From: an uncultured Clostridia bacterium
GTDB lineage: Bacteria; Bacillota; Clostridia; Oscillospirales; Acutalibacteraceae
Direction of reading: 5' to 3'
Assembly (NCBI GenBank): GCA_945875045.1
Contig: CAMCIX010000045.1
Span: 1 to 8,949, forward strand
Length of the DNA: 8,949 nt
The translations under genes were made by a program, and so were the position numbers. Below, one piece after another: positions 198 to 8,949 of this stretch; positions within the stretch are counted from its first letter, which is position 1, and every line of letters begins with the position of its first letter. The notes beneath the pieces were generated by a model. That model saw only the letters and a program-made list of their open reading frames with translations. It was not told the origin of the DNA and made no database searches.

Positions 198-865
198 ATG
201 GCAATCGAGTTGTTTGAGCACAATGAAGATGCCTATAATTCTGCCCTTAAAGTGCTTCATACAAGCGGCAAAGCCGCAATAATTCACCCGACCGGTACAG
301 GCAAGTCCTTTATCGGTTTTAAATTGTGCGAGGATTTTCCGCAAAAAAGTATTTGCTGGCTTTCTCCCTCCGAGTACATCTTTAAAACCCAGCTTGAAAA
401 TCTTAAAAAGGCTTCGGGCGGTTATGAGCCTGATAATATTACTTTTTTCACATATGCAAAGCTTATGAACTTGAAGGGGCGCTCTCAACCTCTTGGGATC
501 TTATGTATAACTGTGCAAAGGAATACTATCTGGAGAACGGGAATTTAAGTGTTCCGAAACGGTATATAACTTCCGACGGTTACACTCTCTGTTCTTGGCT
601 CAATACGCAAAGTTTAGTGTATTCGGGAAGAGTAAAAGGAAATCTGCGCGTAGCTATAACGGAAGATAAATATGACGGCGTGGAGCTCGGCAGATGGATT
701 TATCAACTGCGCAATTAAAGTAAGAGCGGAACCCATACTGCAACATTGACTCCTGAAAGAATCTCCGATTTAGACAAAATAGGAATGATTTGGAACGTTT
801 CTAAATCTAAACGGTATTGGAATTACGAAGTGGCTGAGAATTACTCAAATAGGAGTAATCCTTAA
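198..865 (+). pseudogene. Decayed superfamily 2 helicase with helicase-associated (HA) repeats
   Basis: This is the remnant of a large DEAD/DEAH-type ATPase ending in HA repeats. The first part (198 to about 478) encodes an intact N-terminus with Walker A HPTGTGKS (residues 30-37) and a motif Ia-like LSPSEYIFKTQ stretch. Coding then jumps to another frame near 471-494, straight into HA repeats: SWDLMYNCAKEYYLENGNLSVPKRY, then LGRWIYQLRN. Motif II (DExH) and all later helicase motifs are missing. A TAA at 716-718 interrupts the second repeat, yet HA-like coding (TLTPERISDLDKIGMIWN) continues in the same frame to the stop at 863-865. The join after residues VKGNL also looks like a collapsed repeat, because repeat 1 goes directly into the middle of repeat 2. 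As it stands the first ORF ends at 548 and cannot make an active helicase. The family's role is unclear to me; such proteins occur near mobile or surface-polysaccharide regions. HA membership is by recognition, not by search. Confidence 0.85.
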
Positions 866-899: not shown

Positions 900-2123
900 A
901 TGGATAAGTTTAAAGAAAAGATTTGGCTTTCCTCGCCCACAATGCACGGCGATGAGCTTAAATATGTCAAAGAGGCATATGAAACTAACTGGATGTCAAC
1001 GGTCGGTGAAAATATTAACGAGGCGGAAAGGCTTGCCTGTGAACAGGTGGGTTGTAAATATGCCGTGGGGCTGTCCTGCGGCACCGCCGCCTTACATCTT
1101 GCGGTCAAGCTAGCAGGGGTTAAGGCGGGCGACAATGTGTTCTGTACCGATATGACATTTGCGGCTACGGTTAACCCCGTGCTTTACGAAAAGGCAACCC
1201 CGATTTTTATTGATACCGAATATGACACATGGAATACCGACCCTCAAGCCCTCGAAAAAGCTTTTGAGCTTTATCCCGACGCAAGGGTTGTTGTTATTGC
1301 AAACCTTTACGGCACGCCGGCGAAATTTGACGAAATTCTTGAAATCTGTGAAAAGCACGGTGCGGTGCTTATAGAGGACGCGGCGGAATCGCTTGGGGCT
1401 ACATATAACGGCAGAGAAACAGGTACTTTCGGAAAATACAACGCGATTTCCTTTAACGGGAACAAGATAATCACAGGTTCATCAGGAGGTATGCTTTTAA
1501 CAGACGATAAAGCGGCGGCGGATAAAGCACGTAAATGGTCAACCCAAAGCCGTGAGGCGGCTCCTTGGTACAGCCATGAGGAGGTCGGCTACAACTATCG
1601 TATGAGCAATGTAATCGCGGGAGTTGTAAGGGGTCAGTTCCCGTATTTAAAGGAGCATATTAAGAGGAAAAAGGAAATTTATTTCAGATATAAAGATGGC
1701 TTAAAGAATTTGCCTGTAAGTATGAATCCGTATGACGAAGAAAAGTCAGAACCAAATTTCTGGCTGTCCTGCCTTATTATTGATAAGGACGCTATGTGTA
1801 AACAGGTTAGGAGCGAGAGCGAGGCCTGTTACATAAGCGAGCAGGGCAAATCCTGCCCGACAGAAATTCTTGAAACCCTTGCAAAATATAACGCCGAGGG
1901 CAGACCTATCTGGAAGCCTATGCATATGCAGCCTATTTACCGAATGAATCCCTTTATTACAAGAGAGGGAGACGGCAGGGCGAGAACAAACGCCTATATA
2001 GCGGGCGGCGGAATCGACGCCGGCGCGGATATTTTTGCAAGAGGGCTCTGCCTGCCCAGCGATATTAAGATGACCGTAGACGAGCAGGATAAAATCATTG
2101 AAATAATTAAATCTTGCTTTTAA
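900..2123 (+). CDS. pglE: PglE-like PLP aminotransferase (DegT/DnrJ/EryC1/StrS family)
   Basis: It probably transfers an amino group from glutamate to C4 of a UDP-2-acetamido-4-keto-2,4,6-trideoxyhexose, the second step of UDP-bacillosamine synthesis in the cytoplasm. I chose ATG 900 (407 aa) over an in-frame TTG at 879: the family normally begins a few residues before the KIWLSSP motif, and a weak GGAA at 891-894 is suitably spaced. Seen: SCGTAALHLA near residue 60, which binds the PLP phosphate; LIEDAAESLGATYNG with PLP-contacting Asp about 160; SFNGNKIITGSSGGM with Schiff-base Lys about 189; and C-terminal RPIWKPMHMQP and GLCLPSD as in Campylobacter PglE. Full length. The following phosphoglycosyl transferase starts 12 bases downstream. 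The long stretch from SESEACY to the RPIW motif is less typical. Other 4-amino-sugar nucleotides (UDP-4-amino-4,6-dideoxy type) remain possible, because donor specificity cannot be read with certainty. Confidence 0.88.
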   Translation: MDKFKEKIWLSSPTMHGDELKYVKEAYETNWMSTVGENINEAERLACEQVGCKYAVGLSCGTAALHLAVKLAGVKAGDNVFCTDMTFAATVNPVLYEKATPIFIDTEYDTWNTDPQALEKAFELYPDARVVVIANLYGTPAKFDEILEICEKHGAVLIEDAAESLGATYNGRETGTFGKYNAISFNGNKIITGSSGGMLLTDDKAAADKARKWSTQSREAAPWYSHEEVGYNYRMSNVIAGVVRGQFPYLKEHIKRKKEIYFRYKDGLKNLPVSMNPYDEEKSEPNFWLSCLIIDKDAMCKQVRSESEACYISEQGKSCPTEILETLAKYNAEGRPIWKPMHMQPIYRMNPFITREGDGRARTNAYIAGGGIDAGADIFARGLCLPSDIKMTVDEQDKIIEIIKSCF

Positions 2124-2135
2124 GGGGAAGTATTT

Positions 2136-2828
2136 ATGACTGAAACTCTTTTAAAAGAAACCGAAAAAGCAGAAAGCACCGTTACCGTTTCAAACGGAAT
2201 TTACGCAAGGTACATAAAGAGGATTATGGACTTTTTTCTTTCATTTTGCGCTTTGGTGGTTTTATCCCCTGTTTTGCTTATTCTTACGGCTATCGGAGCG
2301 ATAGTTATGAAGGGCAACCCATTTTTTGTGCAGGAGCGTCCGGGTAAAAACGAAAAGATATTTAAGCTTATTAAATTCCGCACAATGACCTGTGAAAAGG
2401 ATAAGGACGGAAAATTACTGCCCGATGATAAGCGGCTTACAGGGTACGGCAGACTGCTCCGTACTACGTCGCTTGACGAGCTTCCTGAGCTTATTAACAT
2501 ATTAAAGGGCGATATGTCGATTGTCGGTCCGAGACCGTTGCTTGTTAAGTATCTTCCCCTTTACACCGAAAAACAACGGCGCCGCCATGATGTACGTCCG
2601 GGTCTTACGGGGTTGGCTCAGGTAAACGGGAGAAATTCGCTTTCATGGGAAGACCGTTTTGAAATGGATTTGAAATATGTTAAAAATATATCTTTCTTAG
2701 GTGATGTTAAAATAATTACATATACTCTGAAAAAGGTTTTAATAAGAGAAGGAATATCTTCGGCGACTTCTGAAACTATGGAAGAATTTATTGGTACCGA
2801 TATTGCGCAAACGGAGAAAACGGTATGA
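2136..2828 (+). CDS. pglC: PglC-like monotopic phosphoglycosyl transferase
   Basis: It moves a sugar-1-phosphate from a UDP-sugar, probably UDP-diacetylbacillosamine or a relative, to undecaprenyl phosphate at the inner face of the membrane, starting glycan assembly. The 230 residues match the small PglC form, with no N-terminal multi-pass domain. Residues 31-58 form the hydrophobic re-entrant helix with Ser44-Pro45 as its kink. The catalytic Asp114-Glu115 pair lies in TSLDELPEL. KFRTM (80-84), VGPRPLLVKYLPLY (130-143) and RPGLTGLAQVNGR (154-166) are family signatures, and similarity to Campylobacter PglC runs nearly end to end, including YVKNISFL. About 20 extra residues precede the usual start. 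ATG 2136 follows AGGGGAAG at 2123-2130. The stop overlaps the next start as ATGA, which suggests translational coupling with the acyltransferase. Confidence 0.92.
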   Translation: MTETLLKETEKAESTVTVSNGIYARYIKRIMDFFLSFCALVVLSPVLLILTAIGAIVMKGNPFFVQERPGKNEKIFKLIKFRTMTCEKDKDGKLLPDDKRLTGYGRLLRTTSLDELPELINILKGDMSIVGPRPLLVKYLPLYTEKQRRRHDVRPGLTGLAQVNGRNSLSWEDRFEMDLKYVKNISFLGDVKIITYTLKKVLIREGISSATSETMEEFIGTDIAQTEKTV

Positions 2829-3472
2829 AAAAATTAATTATTATCGGCGCAAGCGGATTCGGACGTGAAGTGGCTTGGCTTGTAGAAAGAATAAATAAAC
2901 AAAACCCCACATGGGATTTAATCGGATTTGTTGACGATAATCCTAAAATACAAGGCGAGATAATCAACGGATATCCTGTAATCGGCGATTGTAACAGTTT
3001 AAAGAACATTCAGGACACTTTCGTGGTATGCGCTGTTGGTGCTTCTAAGATGCGTAAATCCATTATAGATAAAATTTGTTTAATAAATCCAAATATTAAG
3101 TTTGCTACATTAATTGATCCTTCTGTTGAAATGTCCAATCTTGTGAAAATTGGAAAAGGTACAATTATTTGTGCTCATACTATTATTACAGTAAATATTG
3201 AAATCGGTTCACATGTAATTATTAATTTGGATTGCACTATTGGACATGATGCGGTTCTTCGTGATTTTGTCACACTGTATCCAAGCGTTAATGTTTCCGG
3301 AGCAACCTATATCGGGGAATGTTCGGAGCTCGGGACCGGTATGCAAATTATTCAGGGAAAAAGCATTGGAGCACATTCAATAGTCGGTGCCGGTGCAGTG
3401 GTCATAAAAGATATACCGGAAAAGTGTACAGCAGTCGGCAGTCCTGCAAAGCCGATAAAATTTTTTGAATAG
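2825..3472 (+). CDS. pglD: PglD/NeuD-family sugar N-acyltransferase
   Basis: It probably acylates the 4-amino group of the UDP-amino sugar made by the upstream aminotransferase, using an acyl-CoA, in the cytoplasm. The N-terminal Rossmann-like UDP-sugar domain starts with IIIGASGFGREV (5-16) and includes FVDDNP (35-40). A left-handed beta-helix of hexapeptide repeats follows from about residue 93, ending with GSPAKPI (205-211). The catalytic base is His141 in TIGHDAVL, followed by Asp142. By my alignment to Campylobacter PglD (from memory), the residues matching its acetyl-site His15 and His134 are Phe12 and Thr150. This is a recurrent subfamily pattern but leaves the acyl donor open. Length (215 aa) is normal. 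GGAG at 2813-2816 serves the start, which overlaps pglC by four bases. Since a hydroxyacyl-CoA dehydrogenase and a thiolase follow at once, the donor may not be acetyl-CoA. Confidence 0.87.
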   Translation: MKKLIIIGASGFGREVAWLVERINKQNPTWDLIGFVDDNPKIQGEIINGYPVIGDCNSLKNIQDTFVVCAVGASKMRKSIIDKICLINPNIKFATLIDPSVEMSNLVKIGKGTIICAHTIITVNIEIGSHVIINLDCTIGHDAVLRDFVTLYPSVNVSGATYIGECSELGTGMQIIQGKSIGAHSIVGAGAVVIKDIPEKCTAVGSPAKPIKFFE

Positions 3473-3474
3473 TT

Positions 3475-3483
3475 GAGGTGAGG
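3475..3483 (+). promoter_or_regulatory. Ribosome binding site fixing a GTG start
   Basis: GAGGTGAGG at 3475-3483 lies directly after the pglD stop (3470-3472) and two to five bases before GTG 3486. The GTG gives the expected N-terminus of the dehydrogenase: the first Rossmann strand begins at about residue 3. No in-frame ATG lies close enough to replace it before the glycine-rich loop. Confidence 0.65.
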
Positions 3484-3485
3484 TT

Positions 3486-4793
3486 GTGATAATAAAAATA
3501 GTAACCGTTATAGGTGCGACAGGCACAATGGGTGCAAACGTTGCCGGAATATTTGCCTCTTTCGGCAACGCTAAGGTATATATGGTAGGTCGTGACATCG
3601 AAAAAGTTAAGAGAACAATTCCAAAGACAGTGAAGTCTGTTCGAGCGGATAGTATTGCGGAAAATTTGATTCCTGCAGATTTTTCCATGCTGGAGGATTG
3701 TGTAAAAGAATCCGATCTCGTTTTTGAAAGCGTCACTGAAAACATCGAAATAAAGCGAAGTATTGCATTAAGAGTAGGCGCGGTTTTAAAAAAAGATGCA
3801 ATTTCTTGCACCGGTTCATCAGGACTGTCGGTTACTGAACTTGCGGAATGTTATCCTGAAGAATTGCGCGGTAATTTTTTCGGTATACATATGTTTAATC
3901 CGCCGTACAGTATGTCACTTTGTGAATTTATTGCTACAAAATATTCAAGGCCGGAGCTCCAAGAAGACTTAAAAGCTTATTTACATAATGTACTTTACCG
4001 AACGGTTGTTGAGGTTAAGGATTCACCGGCTTTTCTCGGAAACAGAATTGGTTTTCAATTCATTAACGAAGCTCTGCAATATGCTGAAAAATATAAGGAT
4101 AACGGCGGTATAGATTATATAGACGCTATCCTTGGGCAGTTTACAGGGCGCTCTATGCCTCCGCTAGTTACGTCGGATTTTGTCGGTCTGGATGTTCACA
4201 AAGCAATCGTTGAAAATGTTTTAAAAAATGCCCCTGACTACGAGCAAACAACATTTGTCTTTCCTGTATTTGCTCAAAAGCTTGTTGCTGAAGGAAAACT
4301 CGGGCGCAAGTCGAACGGAGGATTATACCGTACAATAAAAGATGACAACTGTTTTAAACGTTCGGCTGTTTATGATATAGCTTCAGGTAGTTATCGCGAT
4401 AAAATGGATTATGTATTTCCATTTGCCGAGAATATGAAAAAGAATATCAGAGTCGGAAACTATAAAAAAGCCCTTGAAATTCTCGTCGGCAATCTCTCTC
4501 AAGAAGCCGAAATTTGTATGCATTTTTTATTGAGCTATATTGTATATTCGCTATACTCGGCGGATAAAATCGGATATGGTGTTGAGGCCGCAGACGACGT
4601 TATGGCGACAGGCTTTAATTGGTGCCCTCCGCTGGCTTTGATTGAGGGGATAGCCTCAGTGACTGATGTCAAAGCTCTTGTTGACGAAAGACTTGACCGC
4701 AAATTGCTTGAACAGATAGACATTGACAGGCTTTTCTCAGAAGTTAAGCCGTCAAAATATGATTATCGTTTGTACTTTAAGTCCGGATGCTAA
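3486..4793 (+). CDS. 3-hydroxyacyl-CoA dehydrogenase, stand-alone
   Basis: It interconverts 3-ketoacyl-CoA and (S)-3-hydroxyacyl-CoA with a nicotinamide cofactor in the cytoplasm. Seen: an N-terminal Rossmann fold with a GATGTMG loop (10-16), GxxGxxG where the family usually has GxGxxG; SS at 111-112 matching the substrate serine; IHMFNPPYSMSLCEF with catalytic His135 and, 12 residues on, Glu147; KDSPAFLGNR with Asn186. The first C-terminal domain holds TSDFVGLDVH (229-238) and GKLGRKSNGGLY (270-281). A degenerate second copy of that domain follows (about 320-435, with GFNWCPPLALIEG), which explains 435 residues rather than about 285. No enoyl-CoA hydratase domain is fused, so it is not a FadB/FadJ beta-oxidation protein. 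After strand beta-2 the residues are MVGRD, lacking the NAD-type Asp. It lies 13 bases after pglD and 12 before the thiolase. The start is GTG. Its substrate is unknown, and its place in a sugar operon is odd. Confidence 0.85.
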   Translation: MIIKIVTVIGATGTMGANVAGIFASFGNAKVYMVGRDIEKVKRTIPKTVKSVRADSIAENLIPADFSMLEDCVKESDLVFESVTENIEIKRSIALRVGAVLKKDAISCTGSSGLSVTELAECYPEELRGNFFGIHMFNPPYSMSLCEFIATKYSRPELQEDLKAYLHNVLYRTVVEVKDSPAFLGNRIGFQFINEALQYAEKYKDNGGIDYIDAILGQFTGRSMPPLVTSDFVGLDVHKAIVENVLKNAPDYEQTTFVFPVFAQKLVAEGKLGRKSNGGLYRTIKDDNCFKRSAVYDIASGSYRDKMDYVFPFAENMKKNIRVGNYKKALEILVGNLSQEAEICMHFLLSYIVYSLYSADKIGYGVEAADDVMATGFNWCPPLALIEGIASVTDVKALVDERLDRKLLEQIDIDRLFSEVKPSKYDYRLYFKSGC

Positions 4794-4800
4794 GAGGAGG
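4793..4800 (+). promoter_or_regulatory. Strong ribosome binding site of the thiolase gene
   Basis: AGAGGAGG overlaps the last base of the dehydrogenase stop codon and lies five bases before ATG 4806. It is the best Shine-Dalgarno match among the intact genes here, suggesting efficient translation coupled to the preceding gene. Confidence 0.75.
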
Positions 4801-4805
4801 TTCCT

Positions 4806-6059
4806 ATGAAAGAAAAAGTTTATATTCTGGGCGGAGCACAAACTGATTTTGAAAGGAACTGGACTAAAGAAGGCAAAAATATGATTGCCCTTCTTCGTGA
4901 AGCGATCTCGGACGGTTTTAAAAATGCCGGTGTTACGTATGACGATGTTATTTCTTTGAATCAACAAAACAGGGTCGCCTGTTTTGTCGGAAACTTTATT
5001 GCTGAAAAGTTTGTGGATCAAGGACATTTAGGAGCATTTTTAACCGAGATAGACCCTTCCTTTTACGGTGTTCCGTCTGCAAGATACGAGGCGGCATGCG
5101 CTTCTTCTTCGGTTGCTATTGATGCGGCTCAGGCTAAAATACAAACCGGAGACTATGATATGGCTATTGTGGTGGGCTGGGAGCTTATGAAGACAGTAAA
5201 CTCCAAGATAGGAGGAGATTATCTCGGCCGTGCCGCTTGGTACGAAAAAGAGGGTAAGGATATTGATCTGCCATTCCCAAAACTGTTTGGACGTCTTGCC
5301 GATGAGATGTTAAAAAAATATCAGACCGATGAAAATAGGATGATGGACGCGCTGGCAAGAATATCTGTTATTAACTATTCAAATGCAAAACGTAATCCGT
5401 TAGCTCAAACAAGAAAATGGTTTATGAGTTACGAACAGGCAAGAAACAGAGGTACACAGACAAATCCGCTTGTCGGAGGTAAGCTTGCAAACTCTGATTG
5501 CTCTCAGATAACTGACGGTGCGGCCGTTGTTATTCTTGTTTCAGAAAGGTATATAAATCAGCACGGAATACACGGGAAACCGATTATCAAGGGATATGGA
5601 CATAGAACGGCGCCAATGCTTTTTGATGAGAAGATGGCTGATAATGCAGGTTCGGATTTCATTCTTCCGTGGACCAGACAAGCTGTGCTTGACGCTTATA
5701 ACATGAGCGGTTTGACTGTAGATGATATTAATGTTTTTGAAACACACGACTGCTTCACTTCAAGCGAATACGCCGCAATTTCTGCATTTGGACTGACAGC
5801 TCCCGGAAAAGAATACGAGGCAGTTGAGAGCGGATTGATTGCATTTGACGGCAATAAGCCAATAAATCCCAGCGGAGGACTCATCGGCTGCGGACATCCA
5901 GTAGGTGCTTCAGGATCAAGAATGTTGCTTGATTTATATAAGCAAGTGACAGGTACTGCCGGAGGATATCAGGTTTCAAATGTGAAAAACGGAATAATGC
6001 TGAATATCGGAGGCAGTGCTACAACAAATTACGTATTTATTGTGGGAGAGGACAATTGA
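4806..6059 (+). CDS. Thiolase, SCP2/lipid-transfer-type (acyl-CoA C-acyltransferase)
   Basis: It is predicted to condense two acyl-CoAs to a 3-ketoacyl-CoA, or the reverse, in the cytoplasm. The 417 residues are full length for the family. Seen: the nucleophile Cys98 in [30 protein letters not shown] (230-244); HDCF at 314-317 in place of the NEAF of ordinary thiolases; INPSGG then [10 protein letters not shown] with catalytic His364; and a C-terminal [10 protein letters not shown] (400-409) without the CGGGxG cysteine loop. HDCF together with the missing CxG loop marks the SCP2-type subfamily, in which the HDCF cysteine is thought to take over acid/base duty. All catalytic positions are present, so it should be active. 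Archaeal members usually pair with a DUF35 zinc protein; none is here. Instead it follows the hydroxyacyl-CoA dehydrogenase by 12 bases. I infer the two form acetoacetyl-CoA and then 3-hydroxybutyryl-CoA for the sugar pathway, but chain length cannot be read. Confidence 0.87.
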
Positions 6060-6132
6060 CGGATTGGATAATACCTCAATCTCGTTTGTTTTAAAGAAAT
6101 ACTATTGAGTGAGTTTCAGGTGATTACATATA
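6060..6132 (+). other. 73-base gap between the acyl-CoA pair and the glycosyltransferases
   Basis: This is the longest gap between intact genes of the set. AGGTGA at 6118-6123 is the ribosome binding site for ATG 6133. CTCAAT at 6075-6080 and ATTGAG at 6104-6109 could pair across a 23-base loop, which is too weak to call a terminator. I find no convincing promoter. The gap may mark an edge of the inserted acyl-CoA module. Confidence 0.5.
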
Positions 6133-7341
6133 ATGAATGTCCTGTTTTTAACGCTTTTGGATTTTAATTCTCTTGACGAAAATAATATCTATACCGATTT
6201 ACTTCGTGAATTCGCAAAAAACGGTCATAATACGGTCGTTATTTCACCGAGAGAACGCCGACTTAATGAAGAAACGCAGCTGATAACAGAGGATAACTGC
6301 AAAATTTTAAAGCTTAAAATCGGCAATATACAGAAGACGGGCATTATTGAAAAGGGTATTTCCACATTTTTGCTTGAGGCCCAATTTAAAAGCGGAGTTA
6401 AAAAATATTTCGGCGATATTAAATTTGATTTGGTCCTTTATTCCACACCTCCTATTACCCTTGCGGGCGTTGTTGAATATATTAAAAAACGCGATAATGC
6501 AAAAACTTATCTTCTCCTTAAGGACATTTTTCCTCAAAATGCGGTTGATATAGGAATGATGACTAAGACAGGAATGAAATCAATAATTTATAAGGTTTTT
6601 CGCAGAAAAGAAAAACAGCTATATAAATTATCCGATCATATCGGCTGTATGTCTCAGGCGAATGTTGATTATGTAATTAAAAATAATCCTGAGATTCTGC
6701 CTGAAAAAGTACATATTTGCCCTAATTCGATAGAAGTAAGACCAAATCCGAAAAATGATAATAAAGAAGAAACGCGCCGCAAATACGGTATACCTCTTGA
6801 CAAAACCGTTTTTATTTACGGCGGAAACCTCGGCAAACCGCAGGACATACCTTTTATTATTGAATGTCTAAAAGCAAATGAAAAATACGATGACCGTTAT
6901 TTTGTTATTTGCGGAACGGGAACCGAGTATCCTAAGCTTAAAAAATACTTTAATGAATCGGCTCCTAAAAATGTGCTGCTTATAAGCGGTTTGCCTAAGG
7001 ACGAATACGAAGGCTTTGTCGGCTGCTGTGATGTTGGGCTTATATTCCTTGATCACCGATTTACAATTCCGAATTTCCCGTCGCGTATGCTTTCATATAT
7101 GCAAAACTGTATGCCGGTTCTTGCCTGTACCGACCCTAATACAGATATAGGACAGGTTATTACTGAGGGGCAATTCGGCTGGTGGTGCGAGAGCGATAAT
7201 CCCGACAATTTTACAAAAGCTGTAGATAAAGCCTTGCAGTCTGATTTACGTCAAATCGGTAAAAACGGATTTGAGTATTTAAAAAACAATTATACGGTTA
7301 AAAAAGGCTTTAACATGATAATGCAAAGAATAGAGAAGTGA
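6133..7341 (+). CDS. Family 4 glycosyltransferase, WbuB-like
   Basis: A GT-B enzyme likely to add a sugar from a nucleotide-sugar donor to the lipid-linked amino sugar at the cytoplasmic membrane face. The N-terminal acceptor domain begins MNVLFLTLLDF. YSTPPIT (103-109) and LLLKDIFPQNAVDIGMM (127-143) are hallmarks of the WbuB-type group, which in other bacteria includes transferases of N-acetylamino sugars. The C-terminal donor domain starts around 225 with FIYGGNLGKPQDIP (227-240), a second Rossmann strand at VICGTG (258-263), and FPSRMLSYMQNCMPVL (315-330) replacing the classic E-x7-E motif, as is usual for the group. Length 402 aa is normal and there is no membrane segment. The start has AGGTGA nine bases upstream. 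Its stop overlaps the region just before the next gene's ATG. It may add the second sugar after the PglC step; donor and linkage are unknown. Confidence 0.85.
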   Translation: MNVLFLTLLDFNSLDENNIYTDLLREFAKNGHNTVVISPRERRLNEETQLITEDNCKILKLKIGNIQKTGIIEKGISTFLLEAQFKSGVKKYFGDIKFDLVLYSTPPITLAGVVEYIKKRDNAKTYLLLKDIFPQNAVDIGMMTKTGMKSIIYKVFRRKEKQLYKLSDHIGCMSQANVDYVIKNNPEILPEKVHICPNSIEVRPNPKNDNKEETRRKYGIPLDKTVFIYGGNLGKPQDIPFIIECLKANEKYDDRYFVICGTGTEYPKLKKYFNESAPKNVLLISGLPKDEYEGFVGCCDVGLIFLDHRFTIPNFPSRMLSYMQNCMPVLACTDPNTDIGQVITEGQFGWWCESDNPDNFTKAVDKALQSDLRQIGKNGFEYLKNNYTVKKGFNMIMQRIEK

Positions 7342-7343
7342 AT

Positions 7344-8387
7344 ATGAAAATTTTACTCGTTTCTCCGCTTCCGCCTCCCGCAGGCGGTATGGCTCTGTGG
7401 ACTCAGCAATATCTGGAATTTATGAATAACAAAAATATTCAGGTTGACGTTGTTAATATCGCCGTCACGGGAAAAAGGGCTGCTAATTATACAAAAAAGA
7501 ATATATTGGGCGAAGTGCTGAGAACCTTAAATATTTTTAAAAATACGCTTATATTTGCGGTTAGGGGTAAATATGGTTTAGTTCACGTAAATACCTCTTG
7601 CAGTAAAAACGGTATTACCCGTGATAAAATAGTAGTGCAAATATTACACTTTTTTAAGAAGAAAATTATTTTGCAGTGTCATTGTGACGTAAGATACGCT
7701 CTCGGCAATGAGCGCTCCTTTAAAGCCTTTAAGCATATGCTTAAGCAGTCCGATAAGTGTCTGGTACTGAATAAGGCTTCAAGAGATTTTATAAGAGAAA
7801 ATTTTAACACTGAAGCTTTAATAGTACCGAATTTTATTTCAGAAGAATATGAAGCTGCTATTTCAGCCCCTAAAAGGATAAACGAGAATATTAAAACGGC
7901 TTTATATGTGGGTCATATTCTTGCTACCAAGGGCTGCGATATAATTATTGAGGCGGCAAAGCAATACCCTCAGATACAGTTCAGGCTTGTCGGTCATGTA
8001 AGCCGAAAATTTTCGGAGATTATATTACCCGAAAATGTTTTACTGCTCGGTGAAAAGGACAGGACGCAGGTAAACGAGGAATACAAAAACGCAGATGTAT
8101 TGCTTTTTCCCACCCATACAGAGGGCTTCCCGCTTACGGTAATAGAAGCGATGGCATACGGTCTTCCGATTATTACTACACGGGTCGGCGCTATCCCCGA
8201 TATTTTGGAAGATGAGGGCGCGTTTTATATACCCGTAAATTCCGAGCAGGCCTTGGTTGAAGCGATTGATAAAATAAAGGATACAAAATGCAGAAACGAT
8301 ATGTCTTCTTTTAATAGGGAAAAGGTAAAAAAATATCTGATTAATAATGTTTTGGACGAGCTTATAAATAATATTTATTGCGGTTGA
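7344..8387 (+). CDS. Family 4 glycosyltransferase, second
   Basis: A GT-B retaining-type transferase for a later sugar of the same glycan. I chose ATG 7344 (347 aa) over the in-frame GTG at 7338, because AGAGAAG just upstream (7332-7338) is spaced for the ATG and would overlap the GTG. Seen: KILLVSPLPPPAGGM at the N-terminus, a glycine-rich loop typical of GT4; LYVGHILATKGCD (near 187-199), the start of the donor domain; FRLVGH (about 213-218); and THTEGFPLTVIEAMAYGLPIITT with the E-x7-E pair Glu260/Glu268, which holds the donor sugar. Full length. It begins two bases after the preceding stop, so the two are likely translated together. The family does not reveal the donor sugar. Confidence 0.86.
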   Translation: MKILLVSPLPPPAGGMALWTQQYLEFMNNKNIQVDVVNIAVTGKRAANYTKKNILGEVLRTLNIFKNTLIFAVRGKYGLVHVNTSCSKNGITRDKIVVQILHFFKKKIILQCHCDVRYALGNERSFKAFKHMLKQSDKCLVLNKASRDFIRENFNTEALIVPNFISEEYEAAISAPKRINENIKTALYVGHILATKGCDIIIEAAKQYPQIQFRLVGHVSRKFSEIILPENVLLLGEKDRTQVNEEYKNADVLLFPTHTEGFPLTVIEAMAYGLPIITTRVGAIPDILEDEGAFYIPVNSEQALVEAIDKIKDTKCRNDMSSFNREKVKKYLINNVLDELINNIYCG

Positions 8388-8400
8388 AGGGATATAATTT

Positions 8401-8949
8401 ATGAATAAAGCGTTTATTACAATTTTTACTCCGTCATATAACCGTGCCTATACGTTAACCAAATTGTACAACAGCCTTTTAAGACAGGGCTGTAAGGATT
8501 TTATTTGGTACGTAATAAACGACGGCTCATCAGACAATACAGACCAACTGATGAACACATTTATTGCCGAACGAAAAATCAATATTACATATAAAAAGCA
8601 AGAAAACAGCGGCAAGCATTCCGCTCATAACAAGGCGGTTTCCGACTGTGAAACCGAGCTTTTTTTCTGCGTCGATTCCGACGACTTTCTGACCGATGAC
8701 GCTATCGAAAAAATCGAAAATGTATGGCAGAGTATACCCGAAGATAAAAAAAGCGGGCTGTCAGGAATAGTTGCTAACCGAGGAAACGAAAGCGGCGCGG
8801 TAATAGGAACAAAATTTCCGCCGGACATAACCGCGGCGGGGCTTTCTCAGCTATATGCAATGGGTAAGAGGGGGGATACCGCATTAATTTTCAGAACCGA
8901 AATCATAAAACAGTATCCTTTTCCCGTGTTTGAGGGGGAACGTTTTTTG
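8401..8949 (+). CDS. Family 2 glycosyltransferase, 3' end cut by the window
   Basis: The first 183 residues of a GT-A inverting transferase; the reading frame is still open at base 8949. Seen: FITIFTPSYNRAYTL (5-19), the family N-terminus; VINDGSSDNT (38-47), which binds the nucleotide; the QENSGKHSAHNKAV stretch (67-80); FFCVDSDDFL (88-97) with the DxD metal site at Asp92-Ser93-Asp94; and GDTALIFRTEIIKQYPFPVFEGE (158-180), a signature of a group found in capsule and exopolysaccharide loci. The catalytic base region lies near or beyond the cut. ATG 8401 is served by AAGGGA at 8387-8392. It is 13 bases after the previous stop, which continues the operon. The acceptor and donor are unknown. Confidence 0.88.
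   Translation, partial: MNKAFITIFTPSYNRAYTLTKLYNSLLRQGCKDFIWYVINDGSSDNTDQLMNTFIAERKINITYKKQENSGKHSAHNKAVSDCETELFFCVDSDDFLTDDAIEKIENVWQSIPEDKKSGLSGIVANRGNESGAVIGTKFPPDITAAGLSQLYAMGKRGDTALIFRTEIIKQYPFPVFEGERFL

Follow-up and report, generated by a model that had tools for sequence, protein, structure and literature searches.

Why should two enzymes of the fatty-acid type lie in the middle of a glycan operon? The question is raised by contig C45 of an uncultured Clostridia bacterium (genome G000, a 1.7-Mb assembly, 85% complete), the whole 8949 bases of which are here called the window and which carries a 3-hydroxyacyl-CoA dehydrogenase (HAD) and an SCP2-type thiolase (THL) directly behind a PglD/NeuD-family sugar N-acyltransferase. 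In our assessment, with a probability of roughly 0.7, the pair provides the PglD-like enzyme with (S)-3-hydroxybutyryl-CoA, the predicted reaction of that enzyme being acylation of a bacillosamine-type sugar at its 4-amino group. This interpretation had been offered in a preliminary description, and comparative genomics supports it through intact enzymes, a conserved operon, genomes in which no other thiolase or near-complete dehydrogenase was found, and an acyltransferase subtype linked to the pair; the chemistry at acetoacetyl-CoA, 3-hydroxybutyryl-CoA and the 4-amino group is what we infer from these sequences.

In the proposed route, THL would convert two acetyl-CoA to acetoacetyl-CoA, which HAD would reduce to (S)-3-hydroxybutyryl-CoA. 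UDP-QuiNAc4N, the product of the operon's aminotransferase acting after a putative 4,6-dehydratase from another part of the genome, would be acylated with 3-hydroxybutyryl by PglD, put onto a lipid carrier by the PglC-like enzyme and extended by the glycosyltransferases. The pair would be a portable donor cassette, carried in the absence of a butyrate pathway and dispensable where such a pathway exists. If so, sequence alone would suffice to predict 3-hydroxybutyryl decoration of uncultured bacteria from a two-gene cassette, and the trade-off between cassette and butyrate pathway would be a simple, testable link from central metabolism to surface antigens. Amino sugars bearing 3-hydroxybutyryl occur in many known bacterial polysaccharides, and the literature examined seldom says where their acyl donor comes from.

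The pair and its acyltransferase

The list of open reading frames (ORFs) and profile scans gave a single order on the + strand: aminotransferase, PglC-like enzyme, PglD/NeuD-family acyltransferase, HAD, THL, two GT4 and one GT2 glycosyltransferases. The acyltransferase (2825..3472; TIGR03570 NeuD/PglB/VioB, 204.6 bits, cut-off 160.8) is separated by 13 bases from HAD (3486..4793, 435 aa, GTG start), which is separated by 12 bases from THL (4806..6059, 417 aa). The preliminary description had placed these three genes head to tail within a glycan operon with the same gaps, and ORFs and profiles agree with it. HAD matched 3HCDH_N (PF02737) at 97.5 bits (cut-off 22) and 3HCDH (PF00725) at 45.7 bits (cut-off 22.1); THL matched NF004936 at 570.6 bits (cut-off 375) and Thiolase_C_1 at 93.3 bits (cut-off 28), and its best match in the PDB was 4bi9.

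Both acyl-CoA enzymes had also been said to keep their catalytic residues, and inspection across loci confirmed it. The catalytic set of THL, namely C98 of the CxS motif, H314 and C316 of HDCF, and H364 (the histidine of GHP), is retained in all 12 close loci (window, L002-L011 and L019). In HAD, H135 and E147, twelve residues apart, are invariant in 12/12 aligned sequences (window, L002-L011 and L020, with the broken copy of genome G231 excluded). The nucleotide-binding loop of HAD, encoded within 3486-3540, reads GATGTMG, with a GANGTMG consensus in relatives; the usual loop, GxGxxG, is one residue shorter. A predicted structure of HAD, with a predicted local distance difference test (pLDDT) score of 89, resembles 3-hydroxyacyl-CoA dehydrogenases and adds the fold only. 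HAD-family enzymes yield the S form. HAD is named here as a predicted acetoacetyl-CoA reductase, and THL is predicted to synthesise acetoacetyl-CoA.

The loop of THL was compared with those of related families. In the available passages of two papers, HDCF is assigned to SCP2 thiolases, and YDHF, YDCY or YDCF to thiolase-like aldolases and SLPs (PMC12329534, PMC7682436). Against SCP2-type thiolases and thiolase-like aldolases as a group, THL has in common the CxS cysteine, HDCF and GHP; it differs in sitting in a glycan operon, and in carrying HDCF where the aldolases and SLPs carry one of the other three loops.

Whether the pair is dedicated to the operon or part of general metabolism was judged from 11 genomes (G000 and those of the ten loci from named genomes introduced below), most of which are metagenome-assembled genomes (MAGs). 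Thiolase_N was matched by the operon thiolase in each genome and by 11 partial matches elsewhere, all of which by eye resemble FabH (318-361 aa) or FabF (413-505 aa), and no second thiolase was found in any of the 11. One near-complete 3HCDH_N domain was present per genome (11/11), always inside the operon; other 3HCDH_N matches, several of them above cut-off, extended over no more than about 100 of the 180 positions. Crotonase (ECH_1) was present in four of the 11 pair genomes and gave no match in the other seven, G000 (85% complete) among them. These absences are provisional because most of the genomes are MAGs.

An ordinary beta-oxidation or butyrate pair that came to lie in the operon by chance is scarcely credible against these counts, together with the conservation of the pair beside amino-sugar genes in three phyla. 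Both proteins do belong to common lipid-metabolism families, and a related pair lies outside any glycan locus in L020 (7809-10388; HAD 54% and THL 56% identical to those of the window), where it adjoins xanthine-dehydrogenase-like genes read by eye. In the L020 thiolase, YDYY replaces HDCF, so that this protein lacks the HDCF residues and is possibly an aldolase-like enzyme. A chance or housekeeping pair was rejected on the finding of no other thiolase or near-complete 3HCDH_N in 11/11 genomes.

Recurrence, neighbours and spread

A scan of named genomes with THL, which sees close relatives only because short exact peptide matches were required, returned ten loci (L002-L011). HAD was immediately 5' of THL in all ten, so that the adjacency is not due to chance, and the same arrangement was found in L019; gaps between the two genes, window included, ranged from -1 to 69 bases, values that shift with the choice of start codon. 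Six of the ten loci are from Bacteroidales (L002, L005-L008, L010), three from Clostridia (L003, Mogibacterium; L004; L009) and one from Verrucomicrobia (L011), and nine are from MAGs; the pair therefore occurs in three phyla. Occurrence in one genome with unrelated neighbours, which the preliminary description had named as one outcome that would overturn its interpretation, is not what was seen, as the pair accompanies amino-sugar enzymes in Clostridia, Bacteroidales and Verrucomicrobia.

Per species the pair is rare. Among 295 genomes of the window's order, THL was detected at an expect value (E) of 1e-60 in three: G000, G231 (L019, 81% identity) and G035 (L020, 56%). At E 1e-100, it was detected in the centre genome only, both in a 398-genome sample of the phylum and in 344 genomes around that of L005. 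In a protein search with THL, at least 7889 matches reached E 1e-60; identity was 80-93% in the best 120, and weaker matches may be other thiolases. The cultured Ruminococcaceae bacterium FB2012 encodes a thiolase that is 81% identical. A phage or plasmid origin found no support: there was no match among viral contigs with the patterns used, nor in E. coli DNA, and 63 plasmid records were all below 60% identity (best 39%).

The genes around the pair are consistent in kind and variable in order. A hexapeptide acyltransferase lies near the pair in 12/12 close loci and a DegT-type aminotransferase in 11/12, the exception being L009. The order is PglD-HAD-THL in the window, L003, L004 and L019, which are the bacillosamine-type loci, and HAD-THL-PglD in L002, L005, L006 and L011. 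L005 is legionaminic-type, its genes being in order dehydratase-like, LegC (TIGR04181, 529.9 bits, above the cut-off of 420), HAD, THL, NeuD, NeuB, NeuC, cytidylyltransferase-like and amidotransferase; the dehydratase-like protein fell below the PseB cut-off, and the cytidylyltransferase-like protein was also below cut-off. The bacillosamine-type framing of the preliminary description is thus apt for the window and too narrow for the pair, which is also found in a legionaminic-type operon and in others. In L010, a 259-aa hexapeptide protein and an aminotransferase are immediately 3' of THL. In L007 and L008, the pair is accompanied by a 193-194-aa hexapeptide protein, an ATP-grasp protein (identified by profile scan in L007 and by eye in L008) and a crotonase immediately 5' of HAD. 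In L007 (366-3054, 6101-8650), ketoacyl-synthase-III-like and AMP-ligase genes also join the pair, crotonase and ATP-grasp gene; in L008, the crotonase and ATP-grasp companions are at 7931-8692 and 11164-12935. In L006, a gene of the acetyl-CoA hydrolase/transferase family (6068-7354), perhaps another route to acyl-CoA, is immediately 5' of an aminotransferase-HAD-THL-PglD series.

Linkage between the acyltransferase and the pair was close. In the pair genomes taken together with G231 and G035 (13 genomes, 37 Mb in all), ten NeuD-family genes scored above cut-off and nine of them were no more than 3 kb from the pair, a position with a chance of about 0.3% per gene under random placement. Two of these nine are in L004, and the remaining gene lies on the contig of L007, some 10 kb away from the pair. 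This placement bears on the idea that PglD uses acetyl-CoA and the pair feeds some other acceptor, such as a lipid or an O-acyl group of the glycan. Acetyl transfer is the activity for which PglD proteins are best known, as in the available passages on Campylobacter PglD. In L009, which has no aminotransferase near the pair, a membrane acyltransferase (PF01757, 98 bits) precedes HAD-THL by 29 bases, and a 177-aa hexapeptide protein is also encoded. With nine of ten NeuD genes beside the pair, and with pair-linked NeuD motifs that are absent from PglB (4m98), VioB (7txp), WeeI and the second PglD of L004, we regard that idea as decidedly improbable.

Distance matrices of HAD and THL were strongly correlated (Mantel r 0.87, a value that none of 5000 permutations reached; window, L002-L011 and L020). 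The corresponding values with PglD (HAD, r 0.61, p 0.009; THL, r 0.51, p 0.026) come from 7 loci only and so are not directly comparable with the HAD-THL value; because they too show agreement, swapping of PglD is not proven. THL of L008 (Bacteroidales) is 72% identical to that of the window, for which UvrA is 45% identical; the corresponding figures are 86% and 55% for L008 and L005, and 78% and 80% for L008 and L010. Horizontal transfer would be the simple reading of these values, to which unequal rates could contribute.

Acyltransferase subtype, genomes without the pair and the acyl group

All 8/8 pair-linked NeuD proteins belong to a subtype (ACYLTRANSFERASE) with the motifs C[TS][IVL]GHD, which includes the catalytic histidine, P[ST]VN[VI]SG and GTGxxII[QN]; in the window these are CTIGHD (catalytic H141), PSVNVSG and GTGMQIIQ. 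The three motifs are not carried by the four comparison proteins listed above. Genomes of the order that have the subtype and lack the pair served as a natural control. NeuD matches at E 1e-40 were obtained in 30 of the 295 genomes (34 matches), and four of the 34 have all three motifs: those of G000 and G231, which have the pair, and of G194 and G275. Inclusion of G288, whose NeuD has two motifs and PGTNISG at the third, brings the subtype to 5/34. No THL was detected at E 1e-60 in G194, G275, G288 or G189.

A 3-hydroxyacyl-CoA dehydrogenase was present in 5/5 genomes with at least two motifs and in 4/25 others (G013, G023, G092, G139); for genomes not used to find the motifs the counts are 3/3 and 4/25 (p 0.011, uncorrected for relatedness). 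In G194, G275 and G288 the dehydrogenase gene was read by eye as lying beside crotonase and an acyl-CoA dehydrogenase or thiolase, in the manner of a butyrate cluster, and crotonase-hbd clusters are present in these three genomes and in G231. The thiolase and hbd of the butyrate pathway would run the same two reactions as THL and HAD. The proteins are distinguishable: hbd of the butyrate clusters (open frames of 285-341 aa) scores 200-233 bits to 3HCDH_N, and the operon HADs score 88-104 bits (435 aa in the window); the operon thiolase is SCP2-type. In G194 the operon of the window recurs (aminotransferase 79%, PglC 63% and PglD 58% identical) and lacks the pair, and the acyltransferase of G275 is within a legionaminic-type operon, also without the pair. 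G231 (L019, reverse strand) has a thiolase-crotonase-hbd cluster plus the operon, in which HAD lacks residues 212-321 with a change of frame, by decay or assembly error; a partial second copy of the aminotransferase lies upstream in this locus.

These distributions suggest a broader proposition, on which we are evenly divided: that HAD-THL is a sugar-independent acyl-donor cassette moving between phyla, which provides bacteria that lack butyrate metabolism with (S)-3-hydroxybutyryl for bacillosamine-type, legionaminic-acid-type and other amino sugars through several kinds of hexapeptide acyltransferase. Butyrate producers would use the fermentation intermediate in its place and so could do without the cassette, which in them is missing or has a decayed HAD. 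Decoration of surface sugars would thus be tied to whether or not a cell ferments to butyrate.

Several observations weigh against supply of (S)-3-hydroxybutyryl-CoA to PglD as proposed for the window. Both the acyl chain and the acceptor are deduced from sequence. L009 has the pair and no aminotransferase in 14.8 kb of surrounding sequence, and the relative in L020 is located outside glycan loci. In the control, NeuD of G288 is without the strict PSVN motif and its gene is at a contig end, because of which the pair may lie beyond the contig; one NeuD of G189, a genome with no 3HCDH match, has one of the three motifs; and the comparison of 3/3 with 4/25 is small and uncorrected for relatedness, G194 and G275 sharing a family with G013, G139 and G242. 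In addition, Acinetobacter legionaminic and pseudaminic modules carry the (R) form in the available part of the source, against (S) predicted here (PMC9676051).

The weakest link is the choice of 3-hydroxybutyryl over another acyl group. The pair could give PglD a different acyl-CoA, such as 2-methyl-3-hydroxybutyryl or 3-hydroxypentanoyl, or, at loci with a crotonase, crotonyl or butyryl. SCP2 thiolases as a class accept branched 3-oxoacyl-CoA, and the donor may differ between loci because of the crotonase immediately 5' of HAD in L007 and L008 and the CoA-transferase-family gene 5' of the aminotransferase in L006. We consider a different acyl-CoA unlikely, as the butyrate-type crotonase-hbd clusters in three subtype genomes without a detected pair point to a C4 donor, and 3-hydroxybutanoyl is the acyl group reported on QuiNAc4N in the available passages of two papers (PMC9676051, PMC8074265).

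Tandem PglD-family genes, of which only one has the pair-linked motifs, were seen in L004 (7314-8672) and L081 (1-1311); such a cell may make both acetyl and hydroxybutyryl forms.

Known systems and the remaining genes of the operon

Campylobacter Pgl (PglF, PglE, PglD, PglC), so far as the available passages describe it, has the aminotransferase, acyltransferase and phosphoglycosyl transferase roles in common with the window and differs in that its PglD uses acetyl-CoA, unlike the donor predicted here; we know of no acyl-CoA genes in the Campylobacter Pgl locus. The sugar proposed for the window is itself known, QuiNAc4N with (S)-3-hydroxybutanoyl on N-4 being reported from several polysaccharides in the accessible part of one paper (PMC8074265). 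In A. baumannii, qhbC, qhbB and gdr make this sugar by means of a dehydratase, an aminotransferase and an acyltransferase, the same three enzyme roles and the same N-4 substituent as proposed here (PMC9676051, in part). That module lists no donor-making genes in the passages available, and it is likened to the window by description and not by the sequence of QhbC (PMC9676051); none of the 120 WeeI relatives listed (at least 83% identity) was labelled QhbC.

Precedents for hydroxyacyl supply to amino sugars had been named in the preliminary description. That from P. syringae was borne out by the available text: the viosamine island (vioA, vioB, vioS, vioR, acp, vioM, vioT), in which a vioR mutant lost the modified sugar, has acyl-supply genes beside an aminotransferase and the VioB acyltransferase, as in the window, and its product is an N-(3-hydroxy-1-oxobutyl) amino sugar (PMC3927599). 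It is unlike the window in that supply is by homology based on acyl carrier protein (ACP), with ketoacyl synthase III, ketoreductase and ACP, and in that the sugar is dTDP-viosamine, on flagellin; none of these three supply components was found among the ten window ORFs scanned. For anthrose, the partial sources bear out an operon with an aminotransferase and a glycosyltransferase, and the fatty-acid-type enzymes claimed for it were not confirmed there. In the capsule locus of V. cholerae NRT36S, ORF14 is listed as a 3-hydroxybutyryl-CoA dehydrogenase and goes unmentioned in the available section on synthesis genes (PMC1847822). No title or abstract opening among the entries listed in our literature search ties a thiolase-dehydrogenase pair to amino-sugar acylation, which is weak evidence of novelty because the search reached few subscription papers. 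What appears to be new is a conserved donor cassette of the CoA type, portable and with apparent spread between phyla.

Upstream of the acyltransferase are a DegT-family aminotransferase (900..2123; PF01041, 262.9 bits, cut-off 19.8), predicted to make UDP-QuiNAc4N, and a PglC-like phosphoglycosyl transferase (2136..2828; Bac_transf PF02397, 208.5 bits, cut-off 27). The PglE of the preliminary description denotes a role and not a profile-proven name, since the aminotransferase scored 313.4 bits to the LegC profile TIGR04181, below its cut-off of 420. No 4,6-dehydratase (PglF) was found within the window, and two near-complete PF02719 (Polysacc_synt_2) dehydratase candidates are on other G000 contigs (410 and 353 bits). 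Downstream of THL are a GT4 glycosyltransferase (6133..7341; PF00534, 48.7 bits), which has a 54% identical counterpart immediately 3' of THL in L003, a second GT4 (7338..8387; PF00534, 105.2 bits) and a GT2 glycosyltransferase truncated by the contig end (8401..8949; PF00535, 72 bits). At the other end of the window (198-718) is the remnant of a helicase-like gene, in the form of two short ORFs that match parts of a 736-aa protein with ResIII and helicase-associated domains; L004 has an intact copy immediately 5' of the aminotransferase.

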